Of a DNA stretch of 30,414 bases, positions 5,576 through 22,482 are shown piece after piece. Within the stretch, counting starts at the first letter, position 1; each line of letters begins with the position of its first letter. The notes under the pieces were generated by a model. It did not search any database. It saw nothing but the letters and a program-made list of their open reading frames with translations, and was not told where the DNA came from. The DNA is from a virus: positions 1-30,414 of the IMG/VR virus record IMGVR_UViG_3300001472_000093. The stretch is one strand, 5' to 3'. Position numbers and translations under genes: made by a program.

Positions 5576-6973
5576 CTAGCTAAAGTCCGTGGTCATTTCT
5601 TCATCATCGTCGGCCATTTGCTCGCTAGGAGCTGATTCCCCCTTACCATACAGTTTATTCAAGAAACTTTGGCCGAAAGCTTTCGCAGCAGCCGGTTGCT
5701 TATCTGCTAAATCTCGTAAATTTTGCAGCTCGCTTGCATCGAAGAACGGGTTTTCTAATCTCCAATTCGTAATCCACGCACGAGCCTGACTGAGTTTGTC
5801 GGCATCTGTTTCCATGCCATTGAAAAGACCGTTCTGAACTGCAAGACCATATTCCCGTTGTATTTCCACGTTCCGATTCGCCATGCGCTGTAAAAAACTG
5901 GCTTGTTCAAGTGCGCCATAGTAAGTTGACGCTAAGCTAGGCGATGCGGCGATGAATAGCCGCATTTCCATTTCGGTGATTGCCCCTTTAGTTTGGCCGA
6001 CCAGACCCATAGCAATTCGAGTGCCTAGAGTGTTAGCCAATTCCTGAGCTGAGAAAGTCTTGTCTTCTTCTGTAAACAAACCTAACTCGGACAAAACTTT
6101 TCTGGCTTGCAAGGTTTGGCTTTGAAGCGTCCCAAAATTTTCCTCGCCCAACTCCTCGACTACGTTCAAAAACATAGTGGTCAATTGGTTCTGATTAGCC
6201 GCGTCTTCCGCCGCTTTGAATATGTCTGACTCAAGTTTCGCTAAGGCTTCCCCAGCCTTAACGTCATATCTAGTCGGTGTTCTGGGGGCTTCAACCGTGG
6301 TCGTTATGCTACTTTGCGGCGTTCTGATAAGCCTAGCACTGGGATCGTCTTCTATCGCCTTCACCTCGATCTTGTTTCTGGGATCGACGCGAACCTGCTT
6401 CCTGCCAATGACTTGTCCTTTGCTATCTTTCTCATCGATTTCGTAAACGAGAGGATCGAAAGGTTTGGCGTCTAACTTTAAACGCTCCAAATCACGTTTG
6501 TTCAAATAGTCCCTCGCTGCCGCTTCATCCGCCCGTGCAAGCTCAAAAGCTTTCAGTCCAATTGATTGATCAATCAATCTCTTGTCTTCTCGTGACTTTC
6601 TCAACCGTTCATTGAACGCAGTAAAACCTGCACCGGCAGACCTAAAAGCGCCAGCCGTCGGGTCTGCTGACAACATCGCAGCGCCGACATCGCTCGCCAA
6701 GTCAAAAAGTGTTGGTTTTTGTGGCGAGCTGAATAAAGGAGTTAGCTTTTTAACGTAATCATCGTAACGATTACTAAACATCCCAGTTTTCTCTGCGACC
6801 CCGACCTTTTGTTTCGCTTGGTCGGCTTTGAGAGCTTCTGTAATAGCAGCTTCTAATTGAGCAATGGGATCAGGCTCGTCAAACTGCTCCATGTCCAACG
6901 GCTTTAGGCCGGGAGCACCAGTGGTGTAATCGTCAAACGGGTCTATCCCCTGAACTGGCTCTAATCTTTCCAT
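5576..6973 (-). CDS. putative internal virion protein
   Basis: The product has 465 residues, mostly helical, with a proline- and acid-rich N-terminus (PVQGIDPFDDYTTGAPGL), a basic helical stretch (RLRKSREDKRLIDQSIGL) around 130-145 and a very acidic end (MADDDEEMTTDFS). The segment with GLVGQTKGAITEMEMRLF and AASPSLAST resembles a motif I have seen in helical structural proteins of marine podoviruses. It abuts the 899-residue gene with no gap and follows the 582-residue gene by 3 bp. The three are probably made together and packed inside the capsid or tail. No enzyme motif seen. Confidence 0.55.
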   Translation of the reverse strand: MERLEPVQGIDPFDDYTTGAPGLKPLDMEQFDEPDPIAQLEAAITEALKADQAKQKVGVAEKTGMFSNRYDDYVKKLTPLFSSPQKPTLFDLASDVGAAMLSADPTAGAFRSAGAGFTAFNERLRKSREDKRLIDQSIGLKAFELARADEAAARDYLNKRDLERLKLDAKPFDPLVYEIDEKDSKGQVIGRKQVRVDPRNKIEVKAIEDDPSARLIRTPQSSITTTVEAPRTPTRYDVKAGEALAKLESDIFKAAEDAANQNQLTTMFLNVVEELGEENFGTLQSQTLQARKVLSELGLFTEEDKTFSAQELANTLGTRIAMGLVGQTKGAITEMEMRLFIAASPSLASTYYGALEQASFLQRMANRNVEIQREYGLAVQNGLFNGMETDADKLSQARAWITNWRLENPFFDASELQNLRDLADKQPAAAKAFGQSFLNKLYGKGESAPSEQMADDDEEMTTDFS

Positions 6974-19883: not shown

Positions 19884-20501
19884 CTAGGAAGCTACGTCGA
19901 AGCCAGTGATTTCGATGAGGAAACGTCCAGCAGTATAAGTCGCGTCACCCGTGCCTTGGCTCACGAGATACAAGAATTGGTCAGCAGCTATGTCGCCACC
20001 AGCAACCATTGTTCCAGCAGAAGCAGCGCCAGCGTTGATGATTTGCGTTTCGGTCAGGTCACCAATTGCAGTGTCGTTGACACCAGTGCCTTCGGTTGCT
20101 GAGAACAGATCGATGTCTGTGCTGCCGCCTGCGGGTGTTTCCACGCAAGTCATGGTCACGCCAAACACGCTGCCTTGGTTAGCTGCGGTCACCTTGCCTA
20201 TAAATGCAACGCCAGAGCCATCCTTACCAATGATGTCGCCAGCGGTGCCGCCGTCTTTCAAGCCAGTAAGGTCAATCATGATCGTGGTTTTCACGATGTT
20301 GACGTTAGTCGCCACATCGCTTTTAAGGCGGTTAACCTGAGTAACGTAAACGGCAGCGGTTCCCTCGATACCAGCTCCGCCAGTAGCTTCAGTTGCCATT
20401 TTGATGCCGCTATTAACGGTGATTGTGCCGTTAGCTGCTTTTGAAATTTGTTGAAACCCGTTCTCTGAGCGGACTGGGCCGTTGAAAGTTGTTGTAGCCA
20501 T
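19884..20501 (-). CDS. capsid-associated / decoration-like structural protein
   Basis: The product has 205 residues. I take ATG 20501 (MATTTFNGPVRSENGFQQIS) because AGGAG lies just before it; an in-frame ATG at 20522 would place that binding site inside the gene. It is Gly/Thr/Ala-rich and beta-like (GTITVNSGIKMATE, GTAAVYVTQVNRLKSDVATN, AADQFLYLVSQGTGDATYTA). The N-G-P-V-R-S-E-N-G-F start recurs in marine phage structural proteins near the capsid gene. It is the first gene after the inserted + strand cassette and is probably transcribed from the promoter at 20561-20589. Role inferred from context. Confidence 0.6.
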   Translation of the reverse strand: MATTTFNGPVRSENGFQQISKAANGTITVNSGIKMATEATGGAGIEGTAAVYVTQVNRLKSDVATNVNIVKTTIMIDLTGLKDGGTAGDIIGKDGSGVAFIGKVTAANQGSVFGVTMTCVETPAGGSTDIDLFSATEGTGVNDTAIGDLTETQIINAGAASAGTMVAGGDIAADQFLYLVSQGTGDATYTAGRFLIEITGFDVAS

Positions 20502-20560
20502 GTTGATCTCCTGTCGTGGCAAATGTCAGACGCGGGATTGCGGCTGTCAGGATCTTACCT

Positions 20561-20589
20561 TTTATACCACACAGGCTAGAAACGGACAA
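20561..20589 (-). promoter_or_regulatory. promoter restarting the tail-side late operon
   Basis: On the minus strand TTGTCC (20589 to 20584), a 17-bp spacer and TATAAA (20566 to 20561) precede the structural gene at 20501 by about 50 nt of leader. It faces away from the + promoter at 20635-20662 and would supply tail transcripts downstream of the terminator at 21524. Confidence 0.55.
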
Positions 20590-20623
20590 TTTAATAGGAC
20601 ACTAAAATAAATGCTGTTTGGGG

Positions 20624-20650
20624 TGTACACACACTTGCACATCGACACGG
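20624..20650 (+). promoter_or_regulatory. shared 27-bp upstream element, copy C
   Basis: TGTACA, six bases (CACACT), TGCACA, T, then CGACACGG. It is the counterpart of the element at 1662-1688 on the other strand. The second TGCACA overlaps the -35 of the promoter at 20635-20662, so a bound protein would directly affect polymerase. Confidence 0.6.
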
Positions 20651-20662
20651 GATGAGTATAAT
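20635..20662 (+). promoter_or_regulatory. promoter of the inserted OB-fold gene
   Basis: TTGCAC (20635-20640), a 16-bp spacer and a perfect TATAAT (20657-20662) form a strong sigma70-like promoter; the start would be near 20669, about 17 nt before the ATG. The first half lies in the shared 27-bp element. Confidence 0.7.
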
Positions 20663-20685
20663 AATAGCCATCACAACGGAGAACG

Positions 20686-21516
20686 ATGATGGAAAATTTA
20701 CAAGAGTTGGTTCAAACAGTCACTGATCGCGTAGAGAAGTTTGATGCGAGATCTGCTGCTGCCAGAGCTGCGCGAGATGAGCGGTTAAAGAAAAATGTTA
20801 CGTTGAACAAGGATCTTGAGCCTATTTACAGCGACGCAGGTATCCACGCCCCTTGCGACAACTACCACTGGGTGTGGAATTTGTACGACACCTTGGGCGA
20901 TCTTTACGATATCTGCGAAAACACGTTTATGGCTGGCGAGTTCCTCCCTTGGGACAAGAAGATCAAGCTGTTTTGCAGCAACTACGCTGACAAGCGCAAT
21001 GACTCACCAGTCCGACGCGTTACCTACATCTCCGTTGATCGAGCCAACGCCGTGATTGATGCCTTGTCAGATGTCGTTGAGATTTATACGGGCGCTGCTT
21101 TCGAGGGTCGAAACGGCGATCAAGTTGTTTACGTCTACATCGATGAGCGTTGTAAAGACGTAGCAGACGCTGTTGAGGCTTACCTTGATGCTCCTAAAGT
21201 TGCAGCCGCTGCTGCTGCCAAAGCCGCTCAAGAGGCTGAGCGTGATGCTGCCGACCCATGCCCTACTGGTCGCGTTGTCATTACTGGCGAGGTTTTGAGC
21301 ACCAAGTTGCAAGAAAGTTACTACGGCAGCACATGGAAGATGCTGGTCAAAGATGACCGAGGCTTCAAGGTGTGGGGCAGCATCCCATCATCACTTGACG
21401 CTTCTCGCGGTTGCCGAGTGACATTCACTGCTGCTATCGAACCATCAAACGACGATGACAAGTTTGGTTTCTACAAGCGTCCCACCAAAGCGGAAATACT
21501 AGAGGAGGCCGCGTAA
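20686..21516 (+). CDS. inserted accessory gene with C-terminal OB-fold-like domain
   Basis: The product has 276 residues and is encoded against the surrounding late genes. A coiled N-terminus (ELVQTVTDRVEKFDARSAAARA) leads to an unrecognised alpha/beta domain (APCDNYHWVWNLYDTLGDLY, FLPWDKKIKLFCSNYADK), then an alanine-rich linker (KVAAAAAAKAAQEAERDA, about 180-197). The C-terminal domain, GRVVITGEVLSTKLQESYYG and KMLVKDDRGFKVWGSIPSSL, then R-V-T-F-T-A...D-D-K-F-G-F-Y-K-R-P, has the five-strand spacing of an OB fold and recurs at the ends of phage and plasmid proteins; nucleic-acid binding is inferred. GGAG precedes a double ATGATG start. It has its own promoter and terminator, as expected of a moron. 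Confidence 0.75.
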   Translation: MMENLQELVQTVTDRVEKFDARSAAARAARDERLKKNVTLNKDLEPIYSDAGIHAPCDNYHWVWNLYDTLGDLYDICENTFMAGEFLPWDKKIKLFCSNYADKRNDSPVRRVTYISVDRANAVIDALSDVVEIYTGAAFEGRNGDQVVYVYIDERCKDVADAVEAYLDAPKVAAAAAAKAAQEAERDAADPCPTGRVVITGEVLSTKLQESYYGSTWKMLVKDDRGFKVWGSIPSSLDASRGCRVTFTAAIEPSNDDDKFGFYKRPTKAEILEEAA

Positions 21517-21523
21517 CAGGCAC

Positions 21524-21555
21524 AAAAAAAGGGGGCATAAAGCCCCCTTTCTTTT
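21524..21555. terminator. bidirectional intrinsic terminator
   Basis: A 6-bp GGGGGC/GCCCCC stem with an ATAAA loop, extended by AAA/TTT pairs, has TTTCTTTT on the + side and an uninterrupted run of seven T on the - side. It lies between the convergent ends of the OB-fold gene (stop 21516) and the capsid gene (stop 21565) and should stop both transcripts. Confidence 0.88.
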
Positions 21556-21564
21556 GCTTGGTTT

Positions 21565-22482
21565 CTACGCCCCTTGCGAGCCGTAGATGCCGCGCCAGTC
21601 ACTAAAGCCGAAGCTGTAACGCTCACGAGCCTTGTAACGGATGTTACCAGTCGTGAAGTCAGGCTCCATCGTAGTTTCCATGCCAGTACGCTGGAACATC
21701 TTCAAGCCTTCGCCAGCGTCAGTAACGCTAGTCAGCAAGAAGAACGCATCAGGATCAGTCAGGTAATGGTTTACCGTGTAACCGCCGGGCAATACACCCG
21801 TGTTGCGTATAGCGTTGATGTCGTTGTCGGCAGTACCAGAACGCAATGTTGAGTTCAGGATACGGTCAGCAACAAACACTAACTGAGGTGGAACAACAAG
21901 CTTAGTGGCTTGAACGGAGATCGTTAGACCCTTGTCATCGGTGAATGTGCTGATATCAATCAACGCATCTTCCAAAGACGTTTCGTTCAAGTCAGCCATT
22001 GAAGCCGCACGGTTTGCAGCAGTGCCGCCACCAGCCAGTGGGTGGGCTGTATTAATCAGCGTCACTCCATCTCCACCAGTGAAGTTGGTGTCAAACGCAT
22101 TGTTCAATACGTCAGCGCCTTTAACTTCTTTGGTGTTAGCCATAGATCGGGCCAGAGCCTTCACATATCGCTTGCCCAGTGAGTCGTAAAGGTTGTCCTC
22201 TACGGCTTCATCGGTCAAAGCAAAAGCTAACGCAACAGTGTCGTGCGTGTAGCGAGCTGTATAAGACTCAGAAGCATTGTCGAAAACAACGCCTTGGCCT
22301 TCAGTTTTAGTTGGCGCTCCACCGAAGCCAGTGATCAACACCTCTTCCTCGAAGGCTCGCTGCGAGTCCTCGATAGCGAAGACTTCTTCGTACTCGCGGT
22401 CATATGAGTCGTAGCTCATGCCGAAAAGCGAGTTCAGACCCGGCTCTAGCTCTTTGGCTAGTTGTGCTCTTGAGATAGCCAT
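21565..22482 (-). CDS. major capsid protein, HK97 fold (Mu gpT-like)
   Basis: The product has 305 residues. Landmarks are ELEPGLNSLFGMSYDSYDRE, an E-E-E-V-L-I-T-G-F-G-G-A-P-T-K-T-E-G segment (47-63), RYTHDTVALAFALTDEAVED (77-96), LARSMANTKEVKGADVLNNA and FTGGDGVTLINTAHPLAGGG. The C-terminus ERYSFGFSDWRGIYGSQ is typical of gpT-type capsid subunits. Together these are the E-loop, spine-helix and P-domain regions of an HK97-type subunit. It should build the icosahedral shell on the scaffold encoded two genes upstream. AGGAGG precedes the ATG at ideal spacing, matching high expression. Length fits the family; no N-terminal delta domain or protease gene is seen. Confidence 0.88.
   Translation of the reverse strand: MAISRAQLAKELEPGLNSLFGMSYDSYDREYEEVFAIEDSQRAFEEEVLITGFGGAPTKTEGQGVVFDNASESYTARYTHDTVALAFALTDEAVEDNLYDSLGKRYVKALARSMANTKEVKGADVLNNAFDTNFTGGDGVTLINTAHPLAGGGTAANRAASMADLNETSLEDALIDISTFTDDKGLTISVQATKLVVPPQLVFVADRILNSTLRSGTADNDINAIRNTGVLPGGYTVNHYLTDPDAFFLLTSVTDAGEGLKMFQRTGMETTMEPDFTTGNIRYKARERYSFGFSDWRGIYGSQGA

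Follow-up and report, generated by a model that had tools for sequence, protein, structure and literature searches.

A probable stop/restart node with a structured leader RNA downstream of the phage capsid gene and its moron guest

Introduction

Phage morons are inserted genes which are transcribed independently. Here, we analyzed a gene of this kind, termed the cassette throughout the paper, which is located between the major capsid protein gene and the following genes of a virus record. This record of 30,414 bases, possibly a fragment, is called the window. The cassette resembles known phage morons in having its own predicted promoter, in its sporadic presence, in its orientation on the opposite strand, and in being an accessory gene. 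It differs from them by entering a pre-existing terminator-promoter node, the resident terminator of which it would use, and by a promoter block which is common to a divergent gene pair outside of the late region.

A second described element at this locus is the Mu-gpT-DE RNA (Rfam RF03012). The window contains a member of this family 3' of a gpT-type capsid gene. Rfam lists the RNA under the type “Gene; sRNA,” whereas in the window it appears to form the 5' leader of the downstream gene. Among cultivated phages, HTVC023P-type pelagiphages and CRP-901-type roseophages are the closest counterparts, as they possess a capsid protein of the same lineage (58–61% identity) and the same order of capsid gene, hairpin, leader and D1, the gene downstream of the capsid gene. 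HTVC023P carries a pseudoknot leader 5' of gp41 and CRP-902 a Mu-gpT-DE leader, both without the cassette, while in HTVC027P two small genes, gp60 and gp61, are inserted between the capsid gene and D1 (L371:9967–10384). Finally, capsid cement proteins are of relevance for the function of D1. The heads of phage GP4 are reported to contain capsid and cement protein in equal copy numbers (PMC9698820).

Results and Discussion

Layout of the Capsid–D1 Junction in the Window

The Mu gpT-like major capsid protein gene of the window is found at positions 21565–22482 on the minus strand (Pfam PF25209 and PF10124; PHROG 371, major head protein). D1 (19884–20501) is located on the same strand and would be the first gene of a restarted operon. 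The plus strand in between carries the cassette gene, an open reading frame of 276 amino acids at 20686–21516, as already recognized in an initial inspection of the letters without database searches (the sequence-only reading). The strong terminator facing both ways, which had been postulated there, was also found at 21521–21555. Its stem (21528–21550) shows a folding energy of −24.2 kcal/mol (z −4.1) and is flanked by T-rich tails on both sides, so both convergent transcripts, those of the capsid gene and of the cassette, can end there according to the prediction. The predicted cassette promoter (20635–20662, plus strand) consists of the block TTGCACATCGACACGG at 20635–20650 and a −10 region TATAAT at 20657–20662, with the Shine-Dalgarno sequence GGAGAA of the cassette gene at 20678–20683. 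Its former description as near-consensus holds for the TATAAT and was generous for the −35 region, which is weak, with only TTGCAC at a spacing of 16 nt. The minus-strand promoter TTGTCC-17-TATAAA, proposed to serve the downstream genes, is present at 20561–20589 (GGACAA at 20584–20589 and TTTATA at 20561–20566 in plus-strand letters). It has a conserved −10 region and a counterpart in a closely related locus (L036), and its predicted start near 20553 coincides with the beginning of the Mu-gpT-DE leader RNA (20499–20552, minus strand).

We are aware that a consensus scan did not reveal promoter-like sites above chance at this locus (3 found versus 3.8 expected from shuffles). Therefore, conservation was used as evidence for promoters instead, and it raised the promoters of the window above chance by means of the TTGCACATNGACACGG block and of the leader-proximal −10 region. 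Minimum-energy folding of the window leader was uninformative (z −0.4), and the Mu-gpT-DE assignment is based on the Rfam covariance model, which scored 63.7 bits versus a gathering threshold of 49 bits. The location downstream of a gpT-type capsid gene (PF10124/PF25209) agrees with this family. The outer stem CCUG/CAGG of the RNA takes in part of the Shine-Dalgarno sequence.

Predicted Stop and Restart Across Related Phages

Four capsid queries yielded 320 loci from viral contigs and cassette queries yielded 34 loci. Isolates, among them phage DSL-LC04, the pelagiphages HTVC023P and HTVC027P and the roseophage CRP-902, were added, and duplicate contigs were collapsed in the counts. A terminator just 3' of the capsid stop codon was identified at 218 of 262 distinct junctions (median stem start at 22 nt) when the scan let A/T pairs run into the T-tract, and at 199 of the 262 otherwise. 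Dinucleotide shuffles gave 3–8 and segments within the capsid gene 0 of 261. The terminator was mostly present without any insert, and at many of the other 44 junctions a GC hairpin was followed by a poor T-tract. One case is L036, with a D1 protein 95% identical to that of the window. There, the terminator, a promoter TTGTCG-17-TATAAC and a Mu-gpT-DE leader are found within 145 nt, and the cassette is absent. Throughout the family a −10-like hexamer precedes the leader by 6–9 nt. At least 5 of 6 matching positions were observed for 31% of the Mu-gpT-DE-type leaders (7% for shuffled sequences) and for 64% of the pseudoknot-type leaders described below (11% for shuffled sequences). Judged from these comparisons, both the predicted stop and the predicted restart are features of the phage family, a large marine and freshwater group, and not of the inserted gene.

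Some junctions deviate from this pattern. Several CRP-901-like relatives (L339–L370) combine a poor T-tract with a hairpin that touches the leader and leaves no room for a −10 region, so restart is not universal there. These junctions speak for an alternative which we regard as rather unlikely, namely that the post-capsid hairpin mainly represents a stabilizer of the mRNA 3' end or a processing site with leaky read-through, while the leader would act as a 5' stabilizer or as a translational gate after processing, and the promoter would be weak or absent. The full T-tract of most relatives and the −10 region at a near-fixed distance from the leader start argue against it and for stop and restart. 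In L045 (6906–7040) and L056 (2106–2235), the 3' arm of the terminator, TTGCCC, is located 17 nt upstream of the −10 region and could double as the −35 region of the restart promoter.

Mu-gpT-DE and a Double-Pseudoknot RNA as Proposed Leaders of D1

Where inserts intervene, the leaders accompany D1 and not the capsid gene. The Mu-gpT-DE RNA looks like a 5' leader, as it begins where the promoter is predicted to start transcription, shares bases with the ribosome-binding site and remains next to D1. The RNA itself is known, whereas we newly propose from its position that it acts as a leader beginning at a promoter start.

In many relatives a different leader takes the place of Mu-gpT-DE upstream of D1. 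From its 5' end it is composed of P1, the 5' strand of P2, GACTGR, P1', CAGAC, PK5', AGAC, P2', a spacer, PK3' and the Shine-Dalgarno sequence, with P1 crossing P2 and P2 crossing PK. Examples of this double pseudoknot are L124:4994–5075, L123:4957–5037 and L002:7922–8006, and about 110 other loci carry it. After anchoring the sequences without the use of pairing, an exact P1 partner was found upstream in 49 of 49 sequences with ten different P1 sequences, while a foreign P1 met a partner in 4.4%. A PK helix of at least 5 bases was observed for 41 of these 49 sequences versus 164 of 688 swapped controls. In a MAFFT alignment of 33 pseudoknot leaders, 95.3% of the cells pair, two-sided changes occur at all 13 tested P1 and P2 pairs, and the covariation score is 0.773 versus 0.06–0.15 with the partners slid; during trimming, complementarity served to locate the P1 strand, which biases these values toward P1 pairing but not toward P2 pairing. 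In 1.28 Mb, a covariance model of P2 only produced 114 matches with E-values up to 0.01. Each matching locus had a single match, always on the capsid-sense strand, and many of the matches came from a subtype outside of the model. For loci with this leader, Rfam gave no match at the gathering threshold. At E-values up to 1, L002 and L009 returned nothing except a sub-threshold PrrB_RsmZ match, and the HTVC023P segment gave sub-threshold Rfam matches only, the best ones over the terminator hairpin. Within the scope of Rfam and the open-access literature, the pseudoknot leader may be an undescribed RNA and a candidate for a new RNA class.

We lean toward the view that a family of leader RNAs located at the transcription start controls the first post-capsid gene. 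It would comprise Mu-gpT-DE and the double pseudoknot, the latter with P1 as the first transcribed bases, P2 crossing P1, and a third helix whose end immediately precedes the Shine-Dalgarno sequence. Inserts would dock in the insulated stretch separating the terminator from the leader, using start and stop modules that can be interchanged.

D1, a Probable Capsid Cement Protein

The sequence-only reading had taken the genes downstream of the restart for tail genes. The next gene, D1, has not been demonstrated to be a tail gene, and some members of its family turned out to resemble cement proteins. The proteins of this family share the conserved N-terminus MATTTFNGPVRSENGF (TTFxGPV), while their C-termini are variable, and a homologue in phage DSL-LC04 carries a cement protein annotation. 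For a related D1 from L249 a structure model with a pLDDT of 80 was analyzed. Its best structural matches include capsid/cement entries of Pam1, KHP30, KHP40 and GP4, and the tail-complex protein of phage R4C was also found near the top. The predicted fold of this related D1 thus has cement proteins of Pam1, KHP30/KHP40 and the Ralstonia phage GP4 among its best matches in solved structures; D1 shows no detectable sequence match to solved structures. None of the capsid, D1 and cassette proteins had a meaningful match in sequence searches of the PDB. Since D1 did not match a structurally characterized cement protein there, it is filed as a probable cement protein and not as a member of this group. 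The D1 of the window is probably a capsid cement protein, based on the shared N-terminus and on the model of the related protein, and its C-terminus differs from that of the modeled L249 D1.

A third leader type, CTRATGGT..GGGC/GGGG..ACTGGTT, was seen in L008 (1374–1520) and L012 (6916–7045) before another D1 family (MTTHFTSGVTNVG).

The Cassette as a Moron Between the Capsid Gene and D1

D1 was located at 201 distinct junctions. No gene was found in between at 153 of them (median gap 145 nt), while 48 contained an insert, 40 times on the same strand, 7 times on the opposite strand and once mixed. The empty site of L036 reads GTGCCTGT, AAAA and ATTGTC in direct succession. With the first and the last of these as flanks the ends are tight, and comparison by eye placed the insert of the window at approximately 20592 to 21515. 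When the translations were inspected by eye, other inserts just 3' of the capsid gene in L061, L078 and L050 resembled Hsp20, GNAT acetyltransferase and 2OG-oxygenase genes.

All cassette loci that include the region contain the promoter block TTGCACATNGACACGG without a mismatch, and it is one mismatch off in L024, where a same-strand gene (SNF2-like by eye) is found, and in L037. Allowing up to 3 mismatches, 29 matches were counted versus 8 for the reversed pattern. In the records G001 and G002 the other block matches (up to 2 mismatches) represent a divergent promoter pair outside of the late region (G001:42933 with 1 mismatch, G002:46079 exact). The leader AACGGAGAA is common to the cassette gene and the genes of this divergent pair. 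The block in common with a divergent non-late pair suggests that the cassette is transcribed independently of the surrounding operon, and the sharing of the promoter together with the gene neighborhood indicates that its expression is probably early and separate from that of the late genes.

Several loci document exchanges. In G003, the capsid gene of which is 90% identical, the cassette is found at another site, after a 2OG-oxygenase homologue and with a similar promoter. The window itself has a 2OG-Fe(II) oxygenase gene at 1704–2417 near the late-gene end (PHROG 61), the G003 counterpart of which adjoins the relocated cassette. L004 contains the exact TTGCACATNGACACGG block and an unrelated opposite-strand gene, flanked by the promoter and the 3' end known from the cassette, while in L098 and L001 the promoter and the C-terminal domain were kept and the N-terminal two thirds replaced. 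L084 and L085 contain a homologue of the cassette gene, which in L084 is located downstream of a DNA primase gene and on its strand. The relocation in G003 and the swaps in L004, L098 and L001 indicate that the cassette unit moves and recombines at its borders. Instead of a mobile moron, one might see in the cassette a gene resident in the family which occupies an opposite-strand pocket, and its occurrence at the capsid–D1 site in at least ten related loci would be in favor of this. We consider such a resident gene improbable, given the 153 empty junctions, the different location in G003 and the exchanged genes and domains of L004, L098 and L001.

Overall, sequence comparison points to the cassette as a self-contained moron at an unusual site, in agreement with the sequence-only reading. 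Its own predicted promoter includes the TATAAT and the block that is exact in the cassette loci, it is missing with sharp ends in L036 and is not found at the empty junctions among the relatives compared, and its 3' end lies at the post-capsid terminator facing both ways, of which a counterpart exists without the cassette. The additional proposal, that the insertion created a transcription block for which the minus-strand promoter then evolved as compensation, could refer to the bidirectional terminator directly 3' of the cassette stop codon and to the two back-to-back promoters, yet it is most improbable and was rejected, because terminator and restart promoter occur in cassette-less relatives and at empty sites such as L036, there along with the leader.

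The cassette protein belongs to PHROGs 4750/4265/18425, which are of unknown function, and did not match Pfam. Its AlphaFold model (pLDDT 84) shows a helical/mixed N-terminal part and a C-terminal OB-fold-like domain. LEF-3, Rim1 SSB and RPA were among the best Foldseek matches with E-values of about 0.006–0.03, none being below 0.001, and some phage records label homologues as ssDNA-binding. The protein is predicted to bind nucleic acid via the OB-fold-like domain.

The sequence GCCGCGTARGCGGC was encountered 16 times in the fetched loci, some of which overlap (e.g., L092:4887–4900 and 5823–5836, L084:4972–4985, L116:6137–6150). Several unrelated genes end in this sequence, and their in-frame stop codon is always found in the hairpin loop (C-terminus -AA before the stop). 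In some cases T's follow (terminator), in others the ribosome-binding site of the gene further on. The sequence may represent a mobile stop module paired with the start module.

A Proposed Fixed Node for Transcription and Gene Insertion

With good confidence we propose that the junction between the capsid gene and the downstream genes is a fixed stop/restart node with a structured leader and a hot spot for insertions, the guest in the window being a moron. The loci compared show directly how the junction is arranged, that this arrangement is conserved and that the insertion is polymorphic. According to the proposed mechanism, an intrinsic terminator would end most capsid transcripts, and a separate promoter would start a new transcript, the first nucleotides of which form the structured leader. 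This leader would overlap the ribosome-binding site of D1, the probable cement gene, or lie next to it, and would provide the second mRNA with a structured, probably translationally gated 5' end. The node would allow the levels of the capsid mRNA and of the cement/downstream mRNA to be set separately. A device of this kind had been considered in the sequence-only reading. The idea fits, except that the node is family-wide and not part of the cassette, and that the gene served looks like a cement gene instead of a tail gene. The original interpretation is thereby partly supported, and the cassette appears neither to create nor to repair the transcription block.

The gap between the terminator and the restart promoter would be transcriptionally insulated and would therefore tolerate new genes, which makes it an insertion hot spot. 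In the window the guest would be a moron with an OB-fold-like domain, placed on the opposite strand. It is equipped with a promoter of the type found at the divergent non-late pair, and for this reason probably has an early expression, separate from the late genes. Its transcript would use the capsid terminator from the other side.

These results add a strongly covarying pseudoknot RNA without a match in Rfam, and they provide a concrete context for the known but unexplained Mu-gpT-DE RNA, which would serve the first post-capsid gene as its leader. Moreover, a single odd cassette becomes a family-wide rule for widespread aquatic phages, in which capsid and cement-type genes appear transcriptionally uncoupled and accessory genes would dock in the gap of the stop/restart node.
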